Assembly (NCBI GenBank): GCA_034190875.2
Contig: CM067356.1
Span: 61,056,343 to 61,120,342 of the forward strand
Source: Urechis unicinctus
Taxonomy: Eukaryota; Annelida; Polychaeta; Xenopneusta; Urechidae
Direction: 5' to 3'
Length of the DNA: 64,000 nucleotides
The translations under genes and the position numbers were made by a program. The stretch's first letter is position 1, and the number at the start of each line of letters is the position of its first letter. Below, one piece after another: positions 18,831 to 59,407 of this stretch. Under the pieces are notes generated by a model, which did no database searches, was not told the DNA's origin, and saw only the letters and a program-made list of their open reading frames with translations.

Positions 18831-20900
18831 GGAAACTGAATGTTTTAAAATGCATCCCCCGATAAAGGATAGCATGAAAACGCACTTGCTGCAATAGTTG
18901 AGGAAGAGGCCAAATGGACAAAAACCCAACAGGACACAGGCTGACTCGCAGCGGCGATATCGTGTCTTACGATGAATACAAATAGAACGTGACTCGATTC
19001 AATACGGTGTTATTAGTGGTGATGGCAAATTGCGTCTTGTTTACGCAAACACATCATATGCTGTAAGATATGTCTACGGTTTGTTATAGTTTTGATTCAT
19101 ACACCATTTGTAAAGCTAATGAAATCATCATTACGCATTGAGGTTTGCCTGGAAGAAACAGTCAATCGTCCAATGCTGACGCATAATTGAGCAGACGTCG
19201 TCTGTGGGAACAATCATAAAGTGAGTGATGCTGGGTTGAGTCTGCCACGAACGACGGATAGTGGCTGATTTTATCCCAAGATTAACTGCCTCATGATTAC
19301 AAAAAATAATGACCAGCATCCTAAGTAGGAAATGACATTTCAAACCAGGTTTAACAAATTAATCATCGGGTATGATTAAATGGAGCCATTTAAACCATTA
19401 GAAACCGATATCGTTTGAGTTTTGGTGATAATGTCTCCTCCACCTCATCTCAAGTGCTGTCATGGTGTGTGTAAATCACAACTAATTTCTAATGCAACAG
19501 CATGGGCGTTGTTAGAAGCACTGTGGAGTGTTGTGTCAATTAGCCTGTTGAGGCTACGATTGTATGCCAATAAATTCATATTGCGCAGATCTGGCTAATA
19601 GTGAATAAAGGACGCTGTGCAAAATCCATATTCTCCATTCCAATGTAAATGTATGCATATGAACCCACTATTGAAAGCAGTTGATCTTTAATTTCGATGC
19701 TGTCCTCTCCATGTAGCGTTAACATCGGGGAACACCGTTTGGCTCCGTCATATTGTATCTCGACCTAAAAGTAGCGGCAACGATTACTACGAAATGTAAT
19801 TCACTTGCACGTTTCACATTGACAGCAATTGAATATGCTCCTCTCTCTCTGAACATCACAGTGTACCGCTGTGATTACATTTATATCTGGACTGAGGAGC
19901 TGTTTTAGCTTACTGATGTCCAGCGATTATAAAATGGATGCAATCAGCATGAAAATATCTGTATTCATATTACGTAATTGCACGTCTTTTATCAATGGCA
20001 CACTTGAGGCTCAAAACAAAACATCTAAGCTGTGTATCAGGGATTTGCCGGCCGCTATCTTCTATGCATGCGTTAAACCAAAGGGGCAACGATTTCGCTA
20101 GCAGCTGACAATAAATCAATCTTGCTAATCGGCCAAAATAGTGTTTGAACTCGAATAAAGTACCCTTTTGGGTGGCAAATGTCGAGGCGGAGGGTTTTGT
20201 GAGGTAGAATGACATGTACGCAATGGACAGAGGACGTGACAAGCTCGTAAACGGGACTTAAGATGGTTGAGGCGAGATTTATGGTTTATGTGTTCATAGA
20301 AGATAGCGGCCGGCTGGCCAATGCAAATCCCTGTGGGTTAACCGTTGTTTCGGCCATGAACAAATGAAATGTACCTCAAACCATGCTGTGCTATAGACGC
20401 GATAGACAAATACACCAATAATTCAACCTTTCATACAGACTAACCAAAATGACACTCTTGCTGTTAGAATCGTGTGAACAGCACAAAGTTGTTGCAATGT
20501 TATGACAGTGAGAAATGTCCATGCAAAGCTTTAGATGGCTGTTAGATGGCACCTCAGCTTAAGACAAGTCTACACTAACCTAGCACAAATGCGATAATAA
20601 AACCCGTTCTTAAGTACAAACCAATCTTTATATTGTGTAAAATGAAAGCAATTCGACGCTGAGGTATGATCTATGAAAAGCAAACTAGCTTGTGATTCAT
20701 TTTATATGCCGCAGCCGGGCATTGTGCGAGTGGATTCTCATTAATCTACATGCAAACATATAGCATGTAGCCACACTATCATAATGCCTAGCCTATATTA
20801 TTCCTTGCGATTCGATAGGTTAATATTAAATTATCTGAAAATGCTTAGTTAAGGCCTACATATACTGCTCTTTATATGCCACTTAATAGTCAATGTGCGG
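18830..20900 (+). repeat. Repeat segment R4, plus copy
   Basis: Collinear with 58.2-59.9 kb (plus). Parts are inverted at 53.53-54.74 kb and 31.34-32.0 kb. Landmarks are GACTCGATTCAATACGGTGT, AAACAGTCAAT, GAAGCACT(G/T)TGG(A/C)GTG, CCCA(C/T)TA(T/A)TGAAA, GCGTTAACAT(C/G)GGG, TTTCGGCCATGAAC and CAATAATTCAACC. Identity is roughly 70% by eye. This copy carries an extra foldback insertion at about 20,039-20,331. Confidence 0.75.
20039..20331. mobile_element. Small foldback (MITE-like) insertion candidate
   Basis: The left end (GGGATTTG, then CCGGCCGCTATCTTCTATG, 20,039-20,065) is inverted at the right end (CATAGAAGATAGCGGCCGG, then ATGCAAATCCC, 20,294-20,331). The right copy has about 10 extra bases. 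The enclosed sequence of about 230 bp is absent from the homologous position near 59.4 kb. This fits a non-autonomous element or a locally inverted insertion. No target duplication could be defined. Confidence 0.5.
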
Positions 20901-21699: not shown

Positions 21700-23030
21700 A
21701 TGTGAAACGCTGCTGAGTGTGTTGTCATACTTCGAATATTTTCCCCCAACACTTCCGAATTGGATTTTGTTCGGGCATAAGTCACTGCAACAATTGCCAG
21801 TCAAACCAAAATATAATATTCAAAATACCTATTGCTTTGAAATATGGGTAATATCTTGCGTTGGTATTTTGAATCTAAAACAATGAGTCACGAATCGTCT
21901 CTTTATGTATTTGCTTTAGCAACTATATTATGTTCTGCTCATTGACATCCCCTTAAAGAAGACATTAGTAATTAATTGTATCTATCATAATATCGGCAAC
22001 ACATCTCTGATAGGTTACCCTATTGCGAGGATAATACAGAAACAGCATTGAATTACTATACAAACGCTTCTCACCGTTGATTCATAAAATGTCTCACGAG
22101 ACATATTTCCAATAGCGTAGGTGGTGAATACAGGTACAGTAAATGACCTGTGGTCTTGTGTATGAAATAAACAAATATGGTATATATGTATTTGCTTGTT
22201 TTACTGTATTTTCCGCAGTCATCAAAAGTGGGTACATTGCTTCGTAGACGTAGACTTCACAGCGCATTCGTTGTTGAATAAAGCAGGAGAACCATCGCAC
22301 TTGAGGTAGATAAACGTATGCTACGGAAATGGTAGCCTTGAATTCAGCAGTTGCGAGCAAAAATAATTTACGTTTCAAAGGAACAGACGTCAAAGATCAT
22401 GAAACTATTTTGCGGTACAATGAACATTATTGGATTGTAAAGAAATAGAAAGAAGAAAAGCCATGTAAGTCAACATTACATAAAAAAATACACAATACAC
22501 ATTCAGCTTGTGATTTAAAATGTTTGCACATGTAACGTTTAAAATTCTAATATATTGCAAACCGACGTCTGTTATTTCAACATGATGAACCCTCTTAAGT
22601 GTACCTTAGTTATACAATCAACACAAAGGCTGGGTTCCTTATGTTGGTGTATCCACAATCATAAACGATTCCAAAATTATTTGAATAATAAAGCACATAA
22701 TTCCCGCAGAGAGTTTATTCTGCGAATTAAAAAGCATTTATTCGTGCCAAATTCCCCCATTGGTCAATAAATTTCTGTTATATAATGCATTTGCACCAGA
22801 TATTGAATGCTTTGGCATAGTCTATTTGGTTCTTGGAGTGTTCAGCAAAGATGATATTAGCATAAATGGATGGCACATTTCCCCAAACAGATAATCACAA
22901 ATGTGCTAGGGTACTGACAAATAGCCATCAATTGATCAACGTGTAACAAGGGAAAGAAACTTTAGATATCGTATGTGCAATGAAGCGTCAACATGCTCTG
23001 GCTAGGCTCTTAATGTGTCTGTGCATTTAA
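21700..23030 (+). repeat. 10-kb repeat block, left part (copy 1)
   Basis: Direct partner of about 43.48-45.05 kb. Shared stretches include CATAAGTCACTGCAACAA, ATACCTATTGCTTTGAAA, AAAATGTCTCACGAGACA (a small palindrome, GTCTC..GAGAC) and GGTACAGTAAATGA. Identity is roughly 80-87% by eye, lower than in the core that follows. No conserved coding frame. Confidence 0.8.
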
Positions 23031-23034
23031 TATT

Positions 23035-26000
23035 ATGAACGCATACAACCTCAAAAAATTATATTCAGATTCAATCAACTTGAATGACGATCCACGGTGC
23101 TGTGGTCAAGTATCCATGTGCATCTATTTATACGCTTACATCGTATTGTACGGTCGTACATTACTTATGTTAATAGCATAATGCATTAATGAAGCCATTT
23201 CAGCTTTCCTCAACAAGAATTTCATGGTAAATGGCCTCTGACGATGAGCACATCCCGTGCTAATCCCCCAAGGACAAAGGAAGAGTCAGATACCTCATTA
23301 AATCAAATATATTTATCCTGTGGATTAGTCTCATTATCGACAATGTTAATTTATCGACATATCGATGCAATTACAATGTACAAGTCAGCTGCATATCTGA
23401 CAATTGTGTCTGAATTCAATGTTGCCTGTATTCCGGTTCACATATATACAGATTCAGTATCATAATTGCACACACTAACCATATGACCAGGTCATGTCAT
23501 CAATAACATGCTGGTTGTATTAATATCATGACAATGCATGGCATTTGCAAATCATACTTGCGTATTTTGAATACTTCATTTTGAAATTGTCAACAATGAA
23601 CCATTTTCTATTTGTTAGTCCAATACAAAATCATTTAAGTTCACAATCCGTTCTACGTCCGCAGTATTCGTCATGCAGATAATCTGATTGGGTTAAATCT
23701 ATCATCATAAAACATATTACTTGCGGCTGAATTAATTGGCTTCCATTGTTATTTCCTCACATAGCTTGCCTTTCTTAATCGATCCTTACAAACCAAGTGA
23801 CATAATGTTACAGCAATTTGTCGGCGATATAGACACACGATTATCCTAGTTTCATAAGGCTTACATTTATCATATATATTCTGGTATGAGCGAGCATCCT
23901 CGCTGACATGGCAAGTCTGACAATAGGGGTCTGATTACTTCTTATACAAAATAGACACAGCGCCACACGATGGGCAATGTTGCTGAGTTGAATGTTGTTT
24001 AATATGAATATGTTTTCAGTTAGTAACCTCGCTGGGTGCTGCGAGACTGTTATCGTTAGATCTTTGCCGGCAAAGCAGAAATGGCTGCGAATGGGTCTAC
24101 CAACTGACGCATAGATAATTCCACATTAAGTACCGGCCGGACCAGACGAGCCAGGGTTCATTCACTGCCATAGCCGTTTTGATACGGTACACGTCCTGAT
24201 GTTAGATCTAATGATTTTACATCATGACGTTTTCCATGTATGAAATATTTTGATTCACTTGATTGGTCGGAAATATTATGCGGTAGGAAGGGAATTGTTT
24301 TGCAATAATTCATCAAGTTCATTCTATTTGGATTTATCTGAAACATTTAGGCGCCCACATGCGGCACGTATCTTTTGACGTGGCTTCAAGTATTGCCTCA
24401 ATTTGCAATTTGATCTATTGCGCAATATTTACATATCCAACATATCTAAGGCGTATAAATGGCGTACTATATAGTGAACGACATCAAAGGAGACGTAGAC
24501 GGAAAGTATTGACGCTGAATATAATTAGGGATTAATAGTTAACACAAACGTTTTCAGCTAGAATAAGATTTGTGGCTAAGAATCAAATGAACTTTACGAT
24601 TGACTTTTGTTAAAGGCTTCCCACTAGAGGTTAGCTTGATGGATGATGAGCGTCTCAATATCACTTAACACAAACGTGCTCCATTCCTGAGTCAACACTA
24701 TTTCATGTACTGAGACTCATGCTTAAGTTAATGGAAAATAGCCTGGCTGCATAGTGACGTCATGGTAGATTTTCATAGGACTTAACTGCATCGGAGATAT
24801 ATGAGACAAGACAGAAACGGATATTTAATCTCGTTCTAAAAGTGTATATCATATTTTTACTCTGGCACGAAGGTAGATCGGGGTTCTTTTTTAGGTGGAT
24901 TATTTTTACTTACTCCTTTTTCGAGTCTTGGCTACCTCCTACATCATCCTCACTACCATACCACGCTAGTTTCCATTATAACCAGTGAGACCGGATGAAA
25001 GGGACATAAACGCGTACAGTTACCGCCAATTGTATATTAATTGCAAGATCGTGTCTAAAGAGTTGAAATGGTTTACATACAATGTCACCAGTGATGCGAT
25101 AGCTGGCCTATCCACGAGTGAACGCCTAGCGAGGCCTGTTCATTGGAGAGGAAATAGTGAGGTTTCAAACAGAAATTTGGCAAGGGTGAGCTGCGATCTG
25201 TTAAATAATAGGCGTAACTTTTCAGCAGAATCTCAACGTTAGTGGGACCGGATCCGGAACCTGCCACAAATGCAATACAATATACAAGTACAATTGTTTC
25301 TTATACATCTGATATATATCAGATGCTATCAAATTCGTCCTTATTTTGGCAATGAGTGCCTTCCGCATTACCTTAACCTACACGTGCCGTTGCCTTTCTC
25401 GGAACCGTATTATTTGCCAAAATGATTCGTGATTGAGCAACACTATCGGATTAGACCCTGACCGTATTTTGAGGCATATTTGTCTCACATACAAATAAAC
25501 AAGCCGATAAATTTTTTATAACGAAACTTCCCTTTTCAAATTACATTTCAAGTAAAGTTAGCATAATACATATTTCCATCTATCTGTTAATCCATGGAGT
25601 GCAATTTAATTTTACAGTTTTCAATAGAGCCTATATTTGTCGCTTTGCATTGCCGATGATTTGATCATCTAGTTGCGGCCATAACTCTCTTGTTGTTGTT
25701 GTTGTTGTTCTTCTTCTTCTTCTTCTTCTTCTTCTTCTTCTTCTTCTTTTCTTCTTCTTCTTCTTTTCTTCTTCTTCTTTTCTTCTTTTTTCTTCCTCTT
25801 CTTCTTCTTCTTCTTTTTCTTTTCTTCTTCTTCTTTCTTTTTCTTCTTCTTCTTCTTCTTCTTCTTTTCTTCCTCTTCTTTTTCTTCTTCTTCTTTTCTT
25901 CTTGTTCTTTTCGTTGTTCTTCTTCTTCTTGATCAAGATGATGTTATCCTTGCGATTAAATACACGGTAAATACTCCGCTGTCCTTTAATCACACAATTT

Positions 26001-27200
26001 CGTTCATAATTAGAGGAAAGTGTTTCCGCTTAAATCCGTTTTATCAAAATGAGGACAATCTTCAGGACACATGTAAATGACATAAATCGTGCTCTCAACA
26101 GTTCCAAAAAGCCATTTAACTTCTTAAGAATCACAGGAAGCCAAGTAAATGGTAAAATGCTCATGTACAATAACTGTCTCTAAACCTAATCTTTGGCTGT
26201 AAAGCATCACTGTGATGTGAGATACAGAGTCTGCATAATATACAATATTCTATCTACTGTAGATAGGAGCTGACAACAAGCACTCCTCGTTAAATGTGTG
26301 GAATATAGTCCACACTTTAGGAGATAGTTCGAGATATCGAGTAAGAATTTATAGCGTTGCACCACCTATCTACCCTGGATGATGGCGAATACTAGTGCAT
26401 TGCACCTCTTAACGGTAAACGACGACATAAATACCGATCAGTGGGTCTAATGGGGTACTATCGTAGCCCCTCAAACCGACTGGTCGCTAAGCGCCACCCT
26501 ATCATGTGAATAATTTGATCCATTTCGAGTGCTTATTCTGGTTCAGCTGCTTCAGATTAACACAGGAAGGAACCGCTGGACTGTAAAGAATTGATTAAGG
26601 ACCGCGGGTGAGGAACAACGATAACGGTAGTGAATGTCTGAGGGCGATAAGAACCTCAAGCGTTGCACATAAAAGTAAGGAAGATGGAATTATAGTTGGC
26701 TGATGGTAGTGCATGTCATTCAGCCGCCCTTTAGACAATCCTAGTTATTGCAACAACTTAATCGTTAACTTGGGCTGGGAAACGTTCAATCGGTAATTAG
26801 TCATAAACGTTTTGCAAAGGCGCCTACAATGCAATTACAAAGCCGTTACTTGCTTCGGTTGCTCAATCTATGGATTGCAAATAAGTGCAACCAAGTAGAC
26901 ATTTAAGTCACGAAGGCCCGTCTCATCAACCTCAAAAGAACACGTAATGTAACCTTGAATATCAATAATGCTCTATTGTCAAGAATCGCATAATTGATGG
27001 TGATTGCCTGACTAGTGGCCCTATGCATGAGCGATAGCAGACAATCTAGTACCACCCATACTCAAGGCTTATTAGAAAAGCATCGCAGATCAAATCCGAA
27101 TTCGTAAGAAATCCGATTAACGATATATCGTGCATGCAGTGTATTGCTTTAGCTGAACAAATGAAGTCCATAGCTATACAAGTCAGGTCTGGAAGGTTGC
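23035..27200 (+). repeat. Recent segmental duplication, copy 1
   Basis: It pairs with about 45,060-49,400. Long stretches, for example 23.86-24.55 versus 45.88-46.57 kb and 26.1-26.98 versus 48.35-49.17 kb, differ by only a few bases per hundred. That is clearly closer than the flanking homology. The copies differ mainly in the CTT tract (0.24 kb here, 0.74 kb there) and in an extra stretch of about 95 bp after the tract in copy 2. No functional gene lies within. Short frames here are not conserved except where the DNA itself is nearly identical. Confidence 0.88.
25690..25930 (+). repeat. (CTT)n polypyrimidine tract, copy 1
   Basis: The tract begins as TTG repeats and continues as CTT/CTTTT units for about 240 bp, ending abruptly at GATCAAGATGATG. 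The same right junction follows copy 2 after an extra stretch of about 95 bp. The Ser/Phe/Leu and Glu/Lys/Arg frames across it are microsatellite artefacts. Confidence 0.95.
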
Positions 27201-27477
27201 TCTGAGAGGTTGTAGAGAATGACTCTTCTTACACGGGCAATGTGGTAGGTAATTTGAATTACTAAAAACGATTCGACATTTATGCTTCATGAAAATATTA
27301 AGTGCTGTAAGCAATATAATTTGTAAGTAGCTTATCTGTTTATGACACTGTGAAGCAAAATTAACTGAACTCACACTAACATGTGATATTCTTTGAGGAC
27401 GAGTACGGTCAGTATTCATCATATGTACTTACGAATGTACATGCAAACATAATTTAAATGGAGAACTTCTTTTTGTA

Positions 27478-40586: not shown

Positions 40587-41253
40587 CTACGCACCCTTTT
40601 TCAATGGCTGCCAATCGAGGATTTTTTTTATTAGTGCATATTGGCACTTGATCTCGAGAAGTCTTTTTGGGTGACATGAACAACTTACAATGCCATCAGT
40701 GGAGCAAGCCATGTACGGTCTGTCTAAAGACACAAGTAGTCCTAGAGTATCTACTCTGAGGTGCTTGTGCATCTTTCTATTAATTAGTGTATCAAGAATA
40801 GGTACATTTCACATTCTTGGAACCCAATCGAGAGCTGGAGTGGTAACGGGTAAATTGTCTCCCACTATTGTAGAAATGAGCACAGACGGGTCAGTATCGG
40901 GTTTGTTCATGATGGTCTGCATCCTGGTGCACACCTGGTTGAACACCGAGGCTGTTATTCGTCCTCGCCTCGTTGGATGCCAGGCTGAGTAATCGGCTTG
41001 CCCTTTAGTATCTGAATCAATGAGTTCAATATCAGCAGGGGCGTATTTGACGAATCGGACAAAATCATCTGCAGTGCAGGCAGCTGCGGTGGCTCCCGGT
41101 ATGGCTTGAGCAGACTGTATGATGTGCCCGACAAACTCCTTTGCTGGATCCAGCACACCCAGTGAGAGACATGTGGGCTCTGGCTCTGGAGATGGAGATG
41201 AAGGCTGGCTTTGGTCTTTCGAGTAGTTCGAGGACTTGAGCGTGAGGATTGCT
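40587..41253 (-). pseudogene. YqaJ-type nuclease domain gene, frameshifted
   Basis: The exon begins after a good 3' splice site (CTTTCTGTTTAACAG, ending at 41,254). The first frame (41,253 to about 40,809) contains a Ser/Pro/Glu-rich stretch (SQPSSPSPEPEPT), then ADYSAWHPTRRGRITASVFN, the W..R.GRITAS signature of animal YqaJ proteins. It runs into a stop after DWVPRM. A second frame supplies GSKNVKCTY, like WG..NE..A...Y. A third (to 40,587) has MACSTDGIVSC and LLEIKC, the D and E-x-K of the PDDEXK catalytic core. At least two frameshifts break it, so it is not functional as read. YqaJ proteins are lambda-exonuclease-like DNA nucleases. In animals they commonly belong to transposon-derived genes. 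Confidence 0.85.
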
Positions 41254-41769
41254 CTGTTAAACAGAAAGTGACTTCATTCTGTTTGCATACCCCAGTTGTC
41301 TATTTTGTTCAATCAGTTCTATAAATATTACACTTTATTCAGCTTCATTTAAACATATGTGCAATAAACTTAAACATTTCCATACCTGTCTGATTTTGTG
41401 CGCCAGGCCCTGTAGCTGATCCTCTGAGGTGGGCAACCTGTCACTCGACAAGGGTTAAAGGCATCAACTTGTTTACCAAGTTATGACTCTAGTGTGGTTC
41501 TATACCTAGAACAGATACAAAAATGATAGTAGAAATTACTCATGAAATTACCCCAACTGACAACTTTGGCCTGGGATAATTACAGCTAATGTTATCTCAT
41601 ATGAACCAAAGTATTTGTGTCACATCGCACTTCTAATTGCCATATCTGGTACTGGCACAGGACAGTCATGCTGTCTTGAACGTCTCTGCTGGCCTACATG
41701 GCCATCAGCAAAAAGTCTATAGTCTTCGAAAGACTTGTAGCTGTTCACTTTCTTTTTGTCGAAGTCAGG

Positions 41770-45050: not shown

Positions 45051-45059
45051 GTAAGCGAA

Positions 45060-48000
45060 TTTCATATTATGAACGCATACAACCTCACACAATGATATTC
45101 AGATTCAATCGACTTGAATGACGATCCGAGGTGCTGTGGTCAAGTATCCATTTGCATCTACTTATACGCTTGCATCGTATTGTACGGTCGTACATTACTT
45201 ACGTTGAGAGCATAATGCATCAGTGAAGCCATTTCGGCTTTCCTCAACGAGAATTTCATGGTAACTGGCCTTAGATGATGAGCACATCCCGTGCTAATCC
45301 CCCAAGGACAAAGGAAGAGGTCAGATACCTCATTAAATCAAAGCAAATTATCCTGTCGCTCATTATCGACAATGTTAATTTATCGACGCATCGATGCAAA
45401 TACAATTTACAAGTCAGCTGCATATGTGACAATTGTGTCTCAATTCAATGTTGCCTGTATTCCGGGTCACACTTATACAGATTCAGTATCATAATTGCAC
45501 ACACTAACCACACGACCAGGTCAAGTCATCAATAACATGCCGGTTGTATTAATATCACGACAATGCATGGAATTTGCCAATCATACTTGCGTATTTTGAA
45601 GTCATTTCTAAATTTTGAAATTCTCAACAATGAACCATTTTTATTTGTTAGTCCAATACAAAATCATTTCAGTTCACAATCCGTTCCACGGCCGCAGGTA
45701 TTCGTCATGCAGATAATCTGATTGGGTTAAATCTATCATCATAAAACATGTTACTTGTGGCTGAACTAATTGGCTTCCATTGTTATTTCTTCACATAGCT
45801 TGACCTTTGTTAATCAATCCTTACAAACCAAGTGCAGCAATTTGTCGGCGGTATAGAAATACGATGATCCTCGTTTCATAAGGCTTACATTCATCATATA
45901 TATTCTGGTATGAGCGAGCATCCTTGGTGACATGGCAAGTCTGACAATAGGGGTCTGATTACTTCTTATATGAAATAGACACAGCGCCACACGATGGGCA
46001 ATGTTGCTGAGTTGAATGTTGTTTTATATGGAAATGTTTTAGTTAGTAACCTCGCTAGGTGCTGCAAGACTGTTATCGTTAGATCTGTGCAGGCAAAGCA
46101 GAAATGTCTGCGAATGGGTCTACCAACTGACGCATGGATAATTCCACATTAAGTACCGTTCGGACCAGACGAGCCAGGGTTCATTCACTGCCATAGCCGT
46201 TTTGATACGGTACACGTCCTGATGTTAGATCTAATGATTTTACATCATGACGTTTTCCATGTATGAAATATTTTGATTCACTTGTTTGGTCGGAAATATT
46301 ATGCGGTAGGAAGGGAATTGTTTTGCAAAAATTCATCAAGTTCATTCTATGTGTCATTTATCTGAAACATTTAGGCGCCCATATGCGGCACCTATCTTTT
46401 GACGTGGCTTTCAAGTATTGCCTCAATTTGCAATTTGATCTATTGCGCAATATTTACATATCCAACATATCTAAGGCGTATAAATGGCGTACTATATAGT
46501 GAACGACATCAAAGGAGACGTAGACGGAAAGTATTGACGCTGAATATAATTAGGGATTAATAGTTAACACAAATATTTTCAGCTAGAATAAGATTTGAGG
46601 CTAAGAATCAAATGAACTTTACGATTGACTTTTGTTAAAGGCTTCCCATTAGAGGTTAGCTTGATGGATGATGAGCGTCTCAATATCACTTAACACAAAC
46701 GTGCACCATTCCTGAGTCAACACTATTTTATATACTGAGACTCATGCTTAAGTTAATGGAAAATAGCCTGTCTGCATACTGACGTCATGGTAGATTGTCA
46801 TAGGACTTAACTGCGTTGGAGACATATGAGACAAGACAAGAACGGATATTTAATTCAAGGTTTGAAAATATTTACTCAAATAATTGTATCATGTTACATT
46901 TAAGAATCATTATCGTTCCAAAAGTGTCTGTCATATTTTTACTCTGGCACGAAGGTAGATCGGGGGTCTTTTTTATAGGTGGATATTATCATTACTTACT
47001 CATTTTTCGAGTCTTGGCTACCACCTACATCATCCTCGCTACCATACTACGCTAGTTTCCATTATAGCCAGTGAGACCGAATGAAAGGGACATAAACACG
47101 TACAGTTACCACCAATTGTATATTAATTGCAAGATAGTGACCAAAGAATTTAAATGGTTTGCAAACAATGTCACCAGTTATGCGATAGCTGGCCCATCCA
47201 CACAAGTGAACGTCCACGAGGCCTGTTCTTTGGAAAAGAAATAGTGAGGTTTCAAGCAGAAATTCAGCAAGGGTGAGCTGCGATCTGTTAAATAATAGGC
47301 GTGACTTTTCAGCAGAAAAACGTCTTAACAGAAGAATTTTTTTCTCTTGTTCTTGTTCTTGTTGTTGTTGTTGTTCTTTCTTCTTCTTCTTCTTCTTCTT
47401 CTTCTTCTTCTTCTTTTTCTTCTTCTTCTTCTTCTTTTTCTTCTTCTTCTTTTTTCTTCTTCTTCTTTCTTATTCTTATTCTTCTTTCTTCTTTCTTGTT
47501 CTTCTTCTTCTTTCTTCTTTTCTTTTCTTTTCTTCTTCTTCTTCTTCTCTTGTTTCTTCTTCTTCCTCTTGTTGTTGTTCTTCTTGTTTTTCTTCGTCTT
47601 CTCCTTCTTTTCTTTTACTTCTTCTTTCTCTTGTTCTTCTGGTTTTTCTTCTTTTCTTCTTCTTTCTTTCTTTTCTTCTTAGGGGAAGGAGGGGACGGAG
47701 GAGGAGCGAGGAGGAGGCTTCTTCTATTCTTCTTCTTCTTCTTTTTCTTCTCTTCTTCTTCTTCTTTTTTCTTCTTCTTCTTCTTCTTCTTCTTCTTCTT
47801 CTTCTATTCTTCTTCTTCTTTCTTCTTCTTTTCTTCTTTTTTTTCTTCTTCTTTCTTCTTTTTTCTTCTTCTTCTTTCTTCTTCTTCTTTTCTTCTATTT
47901 TTCTTTTTTTTTCTTCTTCTTCTTCTTCTTCTTCTTCTTCTTCTTCTTCTTCTTCTTCTCTTCTTGTTCTTCTCTTGTTCTTCTTGTTCTTTTCTTCTTC

Positions 48001-49400
48001 TTCTTCTTCTTCTTTTTCTTCTTCTTCTTCTTCTTCTTCTCTTCTTCTTCTTCTTCTTCTTCTACTTCTTCGAGATACCACCCTACCATTGTACACATAC
48101 GTGTTGCCATGTCTGGTTAAACCAGTGCTGGCAGTGCAATCATTAATATGTTGGCCATACGGTACTTGATCAAGATGATGTTATCCTTGCGATTTAATGC
48201 ACGGTAAATACTCCGCTGCCCTTTAATCACACAATTTCGTTCATAATTAGAGGAAAGTATTTCCGCTCAAATCCGTTTTATCAAAATTAGGACAATCGAG
48301 ACGCATGTAATTGACATAAATCGTGCTCTGTATAGTTCCAAAATGCCATTTAACTTCTTCGGAATCACAGGAAGCCAAAGACATGGTATAATGCTCATGT
48401 ACAATAACTGTTGCTAAAACTAATCTTTGACAGTAAAGCATCACTGTGATGTGAGATACAGAGTCTGCATAATATACAATATTCTTTCTACTGTAGATAG
48501 GAGCTGACAACAGGCACTCCTCGTTAAATGTGTGGAATATAGTCTTCACTTTAGGAGATTAAATTATAGCGTTGCACCACCTATCTACCCTGGATGATGG
48601 CGAATACTAGTGCATTGCACCTCTTAACGGTAAACGACGACATTAATGCCGATCAGTGGGTCTAATGGGGTACTATCGTAGGCCCTCAAACCGACTGGTC
48701 GCTAAGCGCCACCCAATCATGTGAATAATTTGATCCATTTCGAGTGCTTATTCTTGTTCAACGGCTTCAGGTTAACACGGGAAGGAACCGCTGGACCGTA
48801 AAGAATTGATTAAGGACCGCGGGTGAGGAACAACGATAATGACAGTGAATGTCTGAGGGCGATAAGAACCTCAAGCGTTGCACATAAAAGTAAGGAAGAT
48901 GGAATTATAGTTGGCTGATGGTAGTGCATGTCATTCAGCCGCCCTTTAGACAATCCTAGTTATTGCAACAACTTAATCGTTAACTTTGGCTGGGAAACGT
49001 TCCATCGGTAATTAGCCATAAACGTTTTGCAAAGGCGCCTACAATGCAATTACAAACCGTTACTTGCTACGGTGGCTCAATCTATGGATTGCAAATAAGT
49101 GCAACCAAGTAGACAAACAAGTCACGATGGCCCGTCTCATCAACCTCAACAGAACACGTAATGTAACCTTAAATATCAATAATGCTCGGCTGTCAAGTAT
49201 CGTAACATTTATGGTGATTACCTGACCAGTGACCCTATTCATGTGTGATAGCAGACAATCTAGTGCCACCCATACCCAAGGCTAATTAGAAAAGCATCGC
49301 AGATAAAATCCCAATTCGTATGAAAGACGATTATCGACATATCGTGCATGCAATGTATTGCTTGAGTTCCACAAATGAAGTCTATAGCTACGCAAGTCAG
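45060..49400 (+). repeat. Recent segmental duplication, copy 2
   Basis: Near-identical partner of 23,035-27,200. It has the same order of landmarks: GTCAAGTATCCAT, TCCCGTGCTAATCCCCCAAG, CAATAGGGGTCTGATTACTT, GCCAGGGTTCATTCACTGCC and CTAGTGCATTGCACCTCTTA. It differs from copy 1 by an expanded CTT tract, about 95 bp after the tract, and an extra stretch of about 55 bp near 46,860-46,915. No functional gene is contained. Confidence 0.88.
47332..48070 (+). repeat. (CTT)n polypyrimidine tract, copy 2 (about 0.74 kb)
   Basis: The tract is CTT/CTTTT/CTTG units almost throughout, three times longer than at 25.7 kb. It is interrupted once, at 47,681-47,718, by a purine block (GGGGAAGGAGGGGACGGAGG continuing in GGAG units) on the same strand. 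Pyrimidine mirror repeats of this length can form intramolecular triplexes. The long Ser/Phe/Leu and Glu/Lys/Arg frames crossing it are artefacts. Confidence 0.97.
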
Positions 49401-49599
49401 GTCTGGAATGTTGCTATGAGAGTTTGTAGAGAATGACTCGTCTTACACGGGACAATGTGGTAGGTAATTTGAATAACAATACATGATTCGACATTTATGC
49501 TTTATGAACATATTAAGTGTTGTAAGCAATATTATAATATTACCTTATCCATTTTATGACACTGCGAAGTAATTTTACTGAATCCACACTGATGTGTAC

Positions 49600-53531: not shown

Positions 53532-53535
<4 letters not shown>

Positions 53536-54741
53536 GCCACCAACCGTGATATGCTGCTCATATGATTTGGTTTGGGCCTGAAGTATGCCATGGGAAAATG
53601 AAATCCAATCAGTTAATATAAATACAGATATTTTCATGTTATTTGCATCCATTAAATAAAATGTATATAATCGCCAGACAGCAGTAAGCTAGAACAGCTC
53701 CTCATGCTATGCAAAGTCAGCTAAAATATAAATGTAATCTCAACGGTACTCTTTGTGGTTCAGAGAGAGATGAATATATTAAATTACCGTTAATGTGAAA
53801 CATGCAAGTACATGTAATTTCATAGACATCGTTGCTGTTATAGTACTGATGAGCAGACCGATTTTATCCCATGTTAACGCTGTATGGACGGAATAGCAAC
53901 GAAGTATAAGATAATTTGTTTTCATTAATGGGTTTATATGCATAGTTGCACATCACGATTTAAGAATACGGCATTCAGTGTTTCTTCGATATGCTCAAAT
54001 TTATTGGCACACAATGATAGCTTATCCCGGTTCGTATATGTAACTGTCCTCAACAGACACATTTGCACACCACGCCAAAGTGCTTCTAACAACATTCACT
54101 TTCCTGTTCGACACCTGTGCCACATTCGACTGAATGATTTACAAGATGATGTTGTCGAAACATTATCTTAAGAGCTCCATCCATTTACTGTTTCCCAGAT
54201 GATTAAATTGTTCCTCCCGGTTTGAGATGTCATTTGCTACTTAGCGTGCTGACCATTATATATTTTTATTTATAAGGCAGTGGTTCTGGCACGCAGGCAA
54301 TACGTCGTTCATGGCATAAATAGGTATTGGATGAGTGTTGCCATGGACGACTTCAGCGTCATTATGTATCAGCGTTGTAACATTGACTGTTTCTTACAGG
54401 CATACCGCAATGCGTCTGATTGAGATGTCAATAGTTCATCAAATGGTGTTTGGGTGATCCTACCACAGACATACATTATTGCAAATGGTGATTATATTAT
54501 GTGTCTGCGTGAACAAGACATTTGCCATCTCCACATACAACGCCATATTGAATCAAGTCGCATTCTGGTTGTAATCATCGTAAGGTAATAAATATGGCTC
54601 AGTAGCCTCATTGGAAGTCCGTCTGTGTCTTGTTAGGTTTTTCATCATTTGGCTATTATATATATCCCATTGTACATTTAATAACATCCGGTGGCCAGCG
54701 GTTGTGTTTGTCATTCCAAGTGCTCACATGTTGTCCTTTAT
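53532..54741 (-). repeat. Palindrome left arm (segment R4, minus copy)
   Basis: This is the inverted partner of about 58,159-59,407. 53,938-54,171 and 58,770-59,003 translate identically over 77 codons when each is read outward to inward, so identity there is essentially complete. Elsewhere occasional indels shift the register by about 40 bases in total. The arm continues, after the transposon insertion, at 57,825-57,929. Confidence 0.92.
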
Positions 54742-54832
54742 CAGGTCAATGACGACCGCAGAACGAAGTACGTACCTCGATCGAGGTACGTACTTCGTTT
54801 CTAGTACGTCGTACTTGGTTTGAAGTATGCAT
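54742..54832 (+). repeat. E1 left terminal inverted repeat with 38-bp perfect palindrome
   Basis: The repeat pairs with 57,728-57,819. Within it, 54,762-54,799 is a perfect palindrome (AACGAAGTACGTACCTCGA followed by its reverse complement). Related AAGTACG/CGTACTT units recur at 54,803-54,812, 55,193, 57,321 and 57,748, which suggests subterminal protein-binding sites. Confidence 0.85.
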
Positions 54833-56642
54833 ACATAAACATTAATTTTCTCAACTGTTTAGCAAATTGTGACATCATTTACTGAAATTTGGTGGGGTTA
54901 AATCGAGGAAACCCTCTAAGTAGTCACAGCCTCGATTTGGGACCATACTTAGCGTTGCACATATACGAGAAGGCTTTTTTACGCGTTTTCAAACTTTAGT
55001 TCGGCGGCCATCGCGTGTCTTTTCCGACTATTGATGAGGCAAAAATACTTTTTGAATCAGTATGGCAAAGTTTGTTTAGATTATATGAAATATAGTTAAG
55101 TGAAAATTGTATGGCATATTTGTGACTTATGGATGATAACATCACGCCCCATGTCAATCCATTTGCACAACCGATATTTGCGTACTCCAAACGAAGTACG
55201 CCGTATAATGGTGGTTTCAAATTTCGCTTGTTGTCTACCCGGGTCTGATTGAGAGTGCTCATATACGCATTCAGTTGTGTTTAAAAATGAAATGGTCTTC
55301 TCAAATAGATTAACAAAGCGGCCAGATGTTTGATATTGAACAGAATGCCCCCCAAAACACCACAACAGTAAGTTTTCATACTTTTGTTGGCCTGTTCTGT
55401 TTGCGTTTTTGAAAACTTTTGTTCTTGTTTTAATTGGCTATTAGGTTATTAGGCTTTACAGATGGAAACGAGCATCATTACATATGTAATGAACATTATC
55501 ATTTTAGCATTCTTAAAGTTTACCAGATATAGAATGGATTGTTCACAAAATCACAGTGTCACCGATCATGTTGTATTGAAATTGACTATGCTTTATTACA
55601 ATTACTTCCATAGCATTGTGGACAGTGGTCATAAGATTATTTCTTGTCGGTAAACTTCATGATGGTGTTTATTCTACATGCTGCTAATAATTGAGTTTCT
55701 ATCGGCCAAATCATATGCCTTTAATCATATGCAATATATCATGCAGATCCATATTGCTTTAAGAAGTGGAGGAACAGCAATGTTTGAGCTAATTTAATTT
55801 TTATAAATAATTCTCAAGTAGCAAATTGTGTTCAAAATCACATACATACAATATTCGGTATTACATAATATTAAAGATACCGAGTAATCCCCGAGTGCAG
55901 GTACACTACAAATCAATTACCAGTATTACAATGAGGCAGATAATGATAACAAGTATAGAAATGTTATGAGTGTTTGACAGCTAAAGGTATATGTATGATG
56001 TTGATAGAATAAGTGAGATACAAAACTATGATGTGTCTAGGACAGGTTACTCAACGCAGGATAAAGCTACTTTAATAGGTCATGACACAGATAGGATTAA
56101 TTGATATTGATATACCTATACATGTACAGACATACATATTACAACAGTGAGTGTTGAATGACAAAACTAGAGGAAAGCATGTACAAAAGGTGGGATGTCA
56201 TTGAAAACGGAAAGGGGTGGGGATGGTTTGTAACAGAGTGCAAATTGATGTGATGTTGTTGAAATCTAATTGCAAAAGACACTAAAGCACTAGTTACCTG
56301 ACCATATCCGCGCAGGATTTAATTGGGGCAGCCTCTTCCCTTCCAAGGAGAAAAGATAAGGACTAATGCGATAACGTTTACAAGTTCAACTGTGCACAAA
56401 ATGCACCCCAACCTATGTTTTCATAAAAATGGAATCCAGAATAAAATATTCTCTCTGTTTCTGTTGTTTGGAACGGAATATATTGAAATTACTTAAACTT
56501 TCAGAGATCCAAAGTGGAAACACCTCACAGGTAAAATTCATATTGCATACATATTTGATGGTACTGAATGCCGCAATATTCTGGTTGAGTATATAGACGA
56601 GAACAGGCGAAACCTGGTACACCCCTCACAGGAATAGTTTCT

Positions 56643-56936
56643 TCATTGAGAGAGCTGAAACAAACTTTCAGCGGCTTGGAACTCATCACTAACGGCTGAA
56701 GGAATGTTCAAGTCTGGATAGATTTCATCCACTTCGTCAATGCATGATTGACAGAACTTAGGAGCAGTCTTTGTGTAATGGACAGATTCTGTTTTTCCAA
56801 CCAAATCCAACAGTTTTTCTTTGACACCACTTGGAAATTTCAATTTCAGGTTTCTAGTTTCCAAACATCCTCATTGTGATTGAAGGCTTTCAGTAGAAAC
56901 CGTTTTGAAAAGGGCATGGCCAATAGCTGTTTCATT
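56643..56936 (-). CDS. E1 candidate exon B, unknown protein
   Basis: Read from a strong 3' splice site (TTTTTTTCCAG, then AATGAAAC; exon start 56,936), the frame gives MKQLLAMPFSKRFLLKAFNH and stops shortly after. An overlapping frame from about 56,864 continues LETRNLKLKFPSGVKEKLLD and ends at the stop at 56,643. So either there is a frameshift near 56,860, or a weaker site (AAACTAG, then AAACCTG; exon start 56,853) is used. The latter joins exon A in phase. The protein has a Cys-x2-Cys (KFCQSCIDEVDEIYP) and an acidic tail. I recognise no family. It is minus strand, in the right half of the transposon. Confidence 0.5.
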
Positions 56937-57488
56937 CTGGAAAAAAACCCACAGTAATTCAGACACTGTCTTGTCAAATACATAACATTATATATTATAA
57001 TCTATGTTTAAGTACACAACACAAACCAGCAATTCTTGTGAGATTTTTTTATATCACCCTCTACTAATAGACTAAATCATATTCGGTTGGAATTATTGAC
57101 ATTGTCACTTCAAGCCGTGCACGACGTTTTATGAATTGATATGTATAGGGTCTACTACCTTCAGAGTGGGGCTATGTCATTTCTTAAGTATGAGTTTTAC
57201 AAATTCTAAAACTAATTATCTCATAACCTGTGGTTCGGTCGCATGATTCATAAGTGTCATTCTTTATTTGTATACGATCTACTATCAGAATATGGCACCA
57301 ATTCAAAAGGAAGCACACCATACTTCGATTTAAGTACGATCGCATCACTACGCCATTGTTTCAGAAAAATCATTCAACAGGGGTGTTATATTATAAGCGA
57401 TAGCTCATTAATTATGCCATAGAATTTTGAATAACATGTAATGTATCATAAGAGGATATACTTGTAAATGAGAAAACCTAGACCTTAC

Positions 57489-57730
57489 CTCTGCCATGTT
57501 GATGTGTGTACAAAATTTAAACCATGAAAGCAGAAAAACTTGCAGTCGCTGTCGAATAATGGAAGTGAAAACTCTTCTTGTGAAGGCCCGATATCGCTCA
57601 CAACAACAGATTTGGTTTCAAATGTAGGCCATAATATATTTGCATAATTAAATCGTTCAAAGCCAATCACATTTAAGAAAATTATGTCATAAAATGCAAA
57701 ACAGCAGAGGGCGGTGGCACGACTATCATG
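57489..57730 (-). CDS. E1 candidate exon A, unknown protein
   Basis: An open minus-strand frame runs from the inner edge of the right terminal repeat to a good 5' splice site (ATGGCAGAG, then GTAAGG; exon end 57,489). It includes ERFNYANILWPTFETKSVVV and CKFFCFHGLNFVHTSTW. No ATG begins this frame. A different frame has an ATG at about 57,730 but closes quickly, so the start is unresolved or the gene is decayed. Exon A plus B would be under 150 residues, too short for a complete transposase. Confidence 0.4.
57701..57720 (+). promoter_or_regulatory. CTCF-like motif inside E1 right end
   Basis: ACAGCAGAGGGCGGTGGCAC matches the core of the bilaterian CTCF consensus (CCASYAGRKGGCRS) at nearly every position. 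It lies just inside the right terminal repeat. This is a single sequence match with no other support. Confidence 0.25.
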
Positions 57731-57819
57731 CGTACCTCAATCGAGGTGCGCCGTACTTAGAACGAAGTACGTAACTCGATCGATGTACGTACTTTATTCT
57801 GCGGTCAGTCCGCGACCTG
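57728..57819 (-). repeat. E1 right terminal inverted repeat
   Basis: Read on the minus strand it begins CAGGTCGCGGACTGACCGCA, then continues GAATAAAGTACGTACATCGA and TCGAGTTACGTACTTCGTTC. This aligns with the left repeat with about 20% mismatch and two small indels. The palindrome is imperfect at this end. Confidence 0.85.
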
Positions 57820-57827
57820 TTTATGTT

Positions 57828-58158
57828 ATGTAAACAAACTTCCAAATACATAACCCACGCGTGCGGTGTAGCCACGCAAGGCAGCTTATATGAAAGGATA
57901 CCATGCATCTCTCTGAATGAAGTGGAAGTCTGGCCTTGAAATACGACAGAAGCTTTGTGTAGTGAAGATCACAGACGTTTAGTGTCGGTGTGCGTTGTTG
58001 ATGATGCTTCTTGCAAAAAGGCCATACACCTCATCGAAATTCTGCTATTCCTTATCACTTCCACTTCATTCAGAGAGATGCATGGTATCCTTTCATATAA
58101 GCTGCCTTGCGTGGCTACAGCGCACGCGTGGGTTATGTATTTGGGAGTTCGTTTGCAT
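57828..58158. repeat. Palindrome apex: 102-bp arms, 127-bp loop
   Basis: 57,828-57,929 and 58,057-58,158 are reverse complements with 4 mismatches in 102 (about 96%). The shared core contains ATGCATGGTATCCTTTCATA. The arms are the innermost part of the same palindrome as 53.53-54.74/58.16-59.41 kb, once the transposon E1 is removed. Two mirror open frames across the arms merely reflect the symmetry. Confidence 0.93.
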
Positions 58159-59407
58159 CACATAAAGGACAACATGTGAGCAATGGGTATGACAAACACA
58201 ACCGCTGGCCATCGGATAATATTAACAATAATATGCACAATGGGATATATATAATAGCCACCCACGTGAAAACGCAAGATGGGAGAGGCCAAATGATGAA
58301 AAACCTACCAAGACACCGACAGGCTTCCAATGGCGCTACCGTGCCATATTTATTACCTTACGATGAATACAACCAGAATGCGACTTGATTCAATATGGCG
58401 TTGTATGTGGAGATGGCAAATATCTTGTTTACGCAGACATATAATATAATCACCATTTGCAATAATGTATGTCTATGGTAGGATCACCCAAACACCATTT
58501 GATGAACTATTGACATCTCAATCAGACGCATTGCAGTATGCCTGTAAAAAACAGTCAATGTTACAACGCTGATACATAATGACGCTGAAGTCGACCACGG
58601 CAACACTCATCCAATACCTATTTATGCCATGAACGACGTATTGTCTGCATGTCAGAACCACTGCCTTATGAATAAAAATATACAATGGTCAGCACGCTAA
58701 GTAGCAAATGACATCTCAAACCGGGAGGAACAATTTAATCATCTGGGAAACAGTAAATGGATGGAGCTCTTAAGATAATGTTTCGACAACATCATCTTGT
58801 AAATCATTCAGTCGAATGTGGCATAGATGTCGAACAGGAAAGTGAATGTTGTTAGAAGCACTTTGGCGTGGTGTGCAAATGTGTCTGTTGAGGACAGTTA
58901 CATATACGAACCGGGATAAGCTATCATTGTGTGCCAATAAATTTGAGCATATCGAAGAAACACTGAATGCCGTATTCTTAAATCGTGATGTGCAACTATG
59001 CATATAAACCCATTAATGAAAACAAATTATCTTATACTTCGTTGCTATTCCGTCCATACAGCGTTAACATGGGGTAAAATCGGTCTGCTCATCAGTACTA
59101 TAACAGCAAAGATGTCTATGAAATTACATGTACTTGCATGTTTCACATTAACGGTAATTTAATATATTCATCTCTCTCAGAACCACAAAGAGTACCGTTG
59201 AGATTACATTTATATTTTAGCTGACTTTGCATAGCATGAGGGGCTGTTCTAGCTTACTGCTGTCTGGCGATTATATACATTTTATTTAATGGATGCAAAC
59301 AACAAAAAAATATCTGTATTTATATTAACTGATTGGATGTCATTTATCCATGGCATACTTCAGGCCCCAACCAAATCATATGAGCTGTATATCTCGGTTG
59401 GTGACTT
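58159..59407 (+). repeat. Palindrome right arm (segment R4, plus copy)
   Basis: This is the uninterrupted partner of the left arm and holds the empty target site of E1 at its inner end. It is also collinear with 18.83-19.95 kb at lower identity. The palindrome therefore arose by inverted duplication of one R4 copy, well after the 18-kb and 58-kb copies separated. Confidence 0.92.

Follow-up and report, generated by a model that had tools for sequence, protein, structure and literature searches.

The window analyzed here, a stretch of 64,000 nucleotides from the genome of Urechis unicinctus (C15:61056343-61120342, in a genome of 1.19 Gb), contains a palindrome whose left arm is interrupted by a DNA transposon of 3,078 bp, which we call E1, and whose right arm has kept the empty site. 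The locus is a self-contained picture of one insertion, before and after, in which the ages of the duplication and of the transposon can both be measured. It illustrates a known kind of event clearly, but is otherwise ordinary. The real interest lies in the gene of a larger partner of E1, the readable part of which found no match in any of the protein family libraries consulted.

We propose the following history for this locus. A stretch of 1.35 kb, part of a duplicated region specific to C15, would have been copied in place in inverted orientation, giving a palindrome with a loop of 127 bp. Later, E1, a non-autonomous cut-and-paste element of 3.1 kb, would have entered the left arm at the sequence TTTAT, duplicating these 5 bp, and the right arm would have retained the original target site. 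The several hundred copies of the E1 family, most of them about 3.1 kb long, would be internally deleted relatives of an element of about 6.1 kb that has the same ends and an antisense gene, in which a short exon is probably followed by a long one. The product of this gene would presumably be a transposase moving E1 in trans. Parts of the arms would since have been made identical again by gene conversion. Taken together, we hold this history (duplication, insertion, deleted derivative, larger partner and conversion) with good confidence. The palindrome is built as follows (window coordinates).

53,534-54,741, plus strand: outer left arm, up to the E1 insertion point; it ends in the target copy TTTAT (54,737-54,741).
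57,820-57,824, plus strand: second copy of the target TTTAT.
57,825-57,929, plus strand: loop-proximal part of the left arm.
57,930-58,056, no strand: loop of 127 bp separating the arms.
58,057-59,407, minus strand: right arm, the reverse complement of the left arm, with an uninterrupted single TTTAT near 58,162.

When the arms were aligned with E1 removed, 51 mismatches (31 transitions and 20 transversions) were found in 1,313 ungapped positions, corresponding to an identity of 96.1%; the gap columns number 38 (31 + 7) in the left arm and two in the right. A preliminary description of the window had claimed reverse-complementary arms around a 127-bp loop, nearly identical in places, and this agrees with our alignment, in which the longest identical run is 246 bp. 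The arm extents that it gave also hold overall, except that the start moves from 53,532 to 53,534 once a flanking AT microsatellite is excluded. Likewise, E1 is indeed present in the left arm only, flanked by a duplicated TTTAT. The filled site reads gttgtcc TTTAT (CAGGTC...GACCTG) TTTAT gttatg, and the empty site, taken from the reverse complement of the right arm, reads gttgtcc TTTAT gtgatg. Thus, the left arm minus E1 and one TTTAT corresponds to the right-arm sequence across the junction. It could be argued that E1 was once present in both arms and was precisely excised from the right one. Cut-and-paste elements can leave a site, as is generally known, and nothing at this locus supports such an event directly; the right arm has a single TTTAT and no footprint, and we regard precise excision as very improbable. 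The parts of E1 are listed below.

54,742-57,819, plus strand: E1, a DNA transposon of 3,078 bp with no recognised gene and with the ends CAGGTC...GACCTG.
54,742-54,832, plus strand: left inverted repeat, terminal and subterminal, containing nested palindromic repeats (CGAAGTACGTACCTCGATCGAGGTACGTACTTCG).
57,728-57,819, minus strand: right terminal and subterminal inverted repeat.
56,643-56,870, minus strand: open stretch of 75 amino acids (aa) with a Cys-x2-Cys motif, the remnant of an exon of a larger relative's gene.
57,489-57,497, minus strand: candidate first exon, ATG GCA GAG, followed by GTAAGG as a possible splice donor (putative, read by eye).

Several lines of evidence show that E1 belongs to a large family of elements with constant boundaries. 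Firstly, 515 left ends of the E1 type were found in the genome at no more than three mismatches in the 31 terminal bases, and 222 right ends matched a 32-base pattern exactly; the controls gave 0 in both cases. Secondly, a DNA search of the genome with E1 gave at least 176 matches, judged from the best 40 of 1,260 candidates scored. Thirdly, both ends were found in 15 of 20 fetched loci, at the boundaries of E1 and each time with an exact 5-bp duplication (15/15); in the remaining five (L015, L023, L026, L027 and L028) one end was not found or had decayed. The preliminary description had read E1 as a DNA transposon bounded by inverted ends and flanked by a 5-bp duplication, and had named in advance the same ends and boundaries in other genomic copies as the point to be tested. 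Both the locus and the size of the family speak for this proposal. Together with the target of E1 itself, the duplications have a T at position 2 in 15 of 16 cases and an A at position 4 in 15 of 16, giving nTnAn as the preferred target. All eight loci returned for exact left ends continue as the internal family of E1 (L031 being the same copy as L020). Between the listed left ends (100 of the 515) and the right ends listed for C1-C8 (74 of the 222) there are 38 pairs, two of which share one right end; 29 of these pairs span 2.8-3.3 kb and the others range from 2.2 to 15.2 kb. The longer subterminal inverted repeats of E1 are imperfect (73% over about 158 bp) and contain nested palindromes. 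Fixed inverted ends with a constant 5-bp duplication, and an empty site with a single TTTAT in the right arm, are what is expected of a cut-and-paste element. Two family copies that lie 9 Mb apart, L029 (C1:6443635) and L032 (C1:15517442), have identical 12 flanking bases; therefore, this insertion was either carried along by a larger duplication or lies in a stretch that is held twice in the assembly.

In all likelihood E1 is non-autonomous and derives by internal deletion from relatives of about 6.1 kb, because E1-type ends enclose a gene match in one place, on C2, and E1-family sequence runs into an open gene in another, on C13. In the case of C2, an exact left end at 44,473,475 (minus strand) and an exact right end at 44,467,378 (plus strand) delimit 6,098 bp in all and enclose a gene match at 44,469,051-44,469,552 that is oriented as in E1. 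In the case of C13 (2081050-2082850; L081 and L082), the non-coding part next to the gene is 97.3% identical to positions 3014-2565 of the family consensus, the letters of the candidate first exon are identical to those of E1, and in the exon homologous to E1's remnant the open frame continues. A protein search with the 75-aa remnant, in which 150 of 748 candidates were scored, also led to a locus (L080) where this stretch runs on into a longer open protein. The 172 aa that follow gave 129 matches (150 of 174 candidates scored), and no counterpart of them was noticed in E1. Further relatives that bear the gene lie, for instance, at C13:18882031, C2:69620822 and C13:44856477. Thus, the Cys-x2-Cys protein that the preliminary description placed on the minus strand exists as an open stretch, which is a remnant of the N-terminal part of a larger gene; some of the fetched copies keep it whole or almost whole, and in others it is interrupted or incomplete. 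Judging from its position and copy pattern, the protein of the larger element is presumably a transposase.

A number of observations weigh against this view. The gene match on C2 is in two pieces with one TAG; the element there is known from end and gene matches, imperfect ends could lie between the exact ones, and no match to the E1 exon remnant was found at that place among the best 150 of the 748 candidates. On C5, a gene match and a left end are separated by 4.44 kb, but one has to go 15.2 kb from this left end, in the appropriate direction, to reach an exact right end. In addition, the exon remnant of E1 is only 81% identical to the C13 copy, versus 97% for the non-coding part, which argues that the descent of E1 is mosaic. 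Finally, the protein has been read over its N-terminal part (about 190 + 172 aa), in which there are no recognised catalytic residues.

The database searches named no family for the parts of the gene that were read. No Pfam match was obtained with seven E1 open reading frames (of the 36 listed, of at least 40 aa), and a PDB search with the 75-aa stretch gave nothing useful. For the parts of the larger gene that were read, Pfam gave sub-threshold hits only (three, all to one of three pieces), NCBIfam gave no match, and PDB gave no credible match to the 172-aa part (three hits, E 0.15-0.6); a search for relatives in viral_contigs returned nothing useful. For several diverged relatives the open frames are listed as about 550-1,030 aa long, and for one as 2,404 aa, lengths that may be inflated by N. 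Two giant open frames at exon matches, of 1,897 and 2,304 aa, were set aside, one of them being inflated by N.

With respect to the origin of the palindrome, the arms are most likely a local inverted duplication rather than a dispersed repeat. When the genome was searched with the right arm, six stretches were recovered (6/6 candidates scored), all on C15: the right arm itself, the left arm in two pieces, the window at 18.9-20.0 kb and at 31.5-31.9 kb, and C15:68433294-68434430. The three copies outside the palindrome are 66-78% identical to the arms, versus 96.1% between the arms. It is because all matches lie on C15, and because the arms are closer to each other than to the other copies, that we favour a local event. 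The possibility that the arms belong to a genome-dispersed transposon with long inverted repeats was rejected, given six matching stretches on one chromosome in a DNA search of a kind that passes over very common words. An 'R4 dispersal', with which the preliminary description opened its order of events, was likewise not borne out, the arm sequence being found on C15 alone.

The remainder of that order, inverted duplication followed by transposition, is the best-supported and simplest one, although it is not proved. We favour it because the age of E1 seems to be similar to that of the duplication, or less, and because the empty site is clean. Compared with ten close copies, E1 has private differences at 53 of 2,941 sites (1.8%; terminal branch 0.0246). 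On average, one arm has diverged by 1.9%; for positions no more than 150 bp from the insertion the figure is about 3.9% per arm, and 8 of 97 positions differ at the outer arm end. Other copies allowed 49 of the 51 arm differences to be compared: 16 are derived in the left arm, 21 in the right, and 12 are ambiguous. It weighs against the favoured order that the divergence of E1 is not clearly later than that of the arms. Indeed, the near equality of E1's private divergence and the mean divergence of one arm would also fit a history in which E1 first entered an allele of a single-copy arm, and the inverted duplication then copied the empty allele in an event between homologues. However, the difference between the arms reaches about 8% beside E1 and again at the outer end, or about 4% for each arm, which is more than the divergence of E1, and an extra inter-allelic step would be needed; we therefore judge an E1-first history to be rather unlikely, and retain duplication followed by insertion.

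The divergence between the arms is uneven. The mismatches are clustered, as judged both from the 246-bp identical run (p 0.00095, 20,000 shuffles) and from the variance of mismatch counts along the arms (p 0.0003, 20,000 shuffles), so that parts of the arms have perhaps been re-homogenised by gene conversion. On the one hand, constraint on the 246-bp block might also explain its identity. On the other hand, the other copies agree poorly in this block (about 0.56-0.72 per 100 bp, and 0.61-0.84 elsewhere), their agreement being lowest here (about 0.56-0.66) among the well-covered stretches of the arm, and for this reason conversion is favoured over constraint; the alignment being weak, this disfavours constraint but does not amount to proof. 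Two points count against conversion: the alignment to the other copies on which it rests is weak (66-78%), and their agreement is low as well (0.44-0.53) in the 200 bp next to the loop, a part in which the arms differ. The arms are mismatched at 20 of the 256 positions that lie no more than 150 bp from the E1 site, versus 31 of 1,057 elsewhere. As a suggestion only, conversion may have been hindered beside the insertion, or that part may simply evolve faster.

Taken as a whole, the window is a patchwork of duplicated segments in direct and inverted orientation. Two of the arm copies mentioned above, at window positions 18,966-20,038 and at C15:68433294-68434430, are 97.9% identical to each other although 7 Mb apart, and both are 66-67% identical to the arms; this points to a recent exchange or duplication along C15. 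Direct duplicates of about 2 kb with 87-90% identity are found at 23,025-25,230 and 45,059-47,317, and at 25,696-27,377 and 47,905-49,590, and related segments in inverted orientation lie near 51 kb and near 36 kb, making the window a cluster of old duplicated segments. All stop-to-stop frames of more than 154 aa in the window are simple-repeat stretches. An open stretch of 154 aa at 40,812-41,273 (minus strand) has a weak alkaline-exonuclease-like match (E 0.0049, below cut-off), and an Rfam search of the window at gathering scores gave nothing useful.

The placement of the E1 family among known transposons involves its relatives. A sister group is marked by the ends CAGGTCNNNGATCACCGCAG, of which 175 exact instances were found in the genome (control 0), and among the 12 loci returned there are three end pairs with the exact duplications GTAAA, GTTAA and ATATA; locus L055 has its own duplication, GTAAC/GTTAC, with one mismatch. 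The terminal 73-76 bp of the element at L074/L075 are 74-75% identical to the E1 family. A sister element of 3,081 bp with CAGGTC ends contains a PHD-finger-like fragment (L075:1-201, minus strand; E 0.0059, below the Pfam cut-off), which could derive from a captured host exon or else belong to the gene of the element itself. A hAT transposase was found between the CAGGTC ends of L055 (L055:1063-3165), and an assignment of the group to hAT on this basis was rejected: the hAT element is nested, since its end, TAGTGGTGGGAATCGG, is also present, next to unrelated flanking sequence, at six further places (represented by eight locus records, two of which repeat a place). This illustrates a trap, in that a transposase between ends of the right kind can belong to a nested element and not to the partner.

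A relationship with hAT is nevertheless conceivable. Ordinary hAT elements have nTnnnnAn targets, and in the E1 family, too, the second base of the target is a T and the second-last an A. Families of hAT elements with 5-bp duplications, the length found for E1, are named hAT5 (PMC12730594). However, the only hAT transposase found between CAGGTC ends is the separate, nested one of L055, the 12 hAT loci first fetched show no other E1-like end, and the matches to PF05699, the hAT dimerisation domain (best 150 of 567), do not coincide by eye with the 129 gene matches (best 150 of 174). The E1 family resembles hAT5 in its 5-bp target duplication, whereas no hAT domain was found in the N-terminal gene part that was read, nor, on inspection by eye, at the loci with gene matches. 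That the family is of the hAT5 type is, in our view, possible but doubtful.

Rather less probable still is membership of the CMCT group (EnSpm/CACTA, Mirage, Chapaev and Transib). Transib elements typically end in a CAC-type heptamer, from which the CAGGTC ends of E1 appear to differ. The E1 family does share with the group 5'-CA..TG-3' ends and a duplication within the range of 2-5 bp, marks that apply in most cases for the ends (PMC12730594); for Transib, duplications of 5 bp are given (PMC8355894). A further criterion for the group, the presence of C(2)C and H(3-4)H motifs between the second D and the E, concerns the catalytic part of the protein. Against this assignment, the part of the protein that was read has no Pfam match above the cut-off. 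In a separate comparison with transposon proteins of the DUF6589 type, PF20231 gave 70 matches, none of them at the gene loci by eye (best 102 of 253 candidates scored).

Between these two in probability, and equally tentative, we place the idea that E1 and its sister families are moved by an undescribed transposase lineage, with a large antisense-encoded protein (open frames near 1,000 aa are listed for diverged relatives, a length that may be inflated) and elements of about 6.1 kb. These elements would have CAGGTC ends, 5-bp nTnAn duplications and nested subterminal palindromes, and would be present in this genome in several lineages down to 25-30% identity. The E1 family, which numbers hundreds of copies and keeps strictly to 5-bp nTnAn targets, is tied to a gene family that the libraries do not name, and this gives a handle for classifying this group of transposons. 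In its general organisation E1 can be compared with non-autonomous derivatives that arose by internal deletion, such as Ds of the Ac system. The E1 family differs from these in its rather uniform length of about 3.1 kb and its apparently mosaic descent. Like them, E1 has its ends and adjoining non-coding sequence in common with a longer element that bears a gene, and it retains a remnant of an exon.

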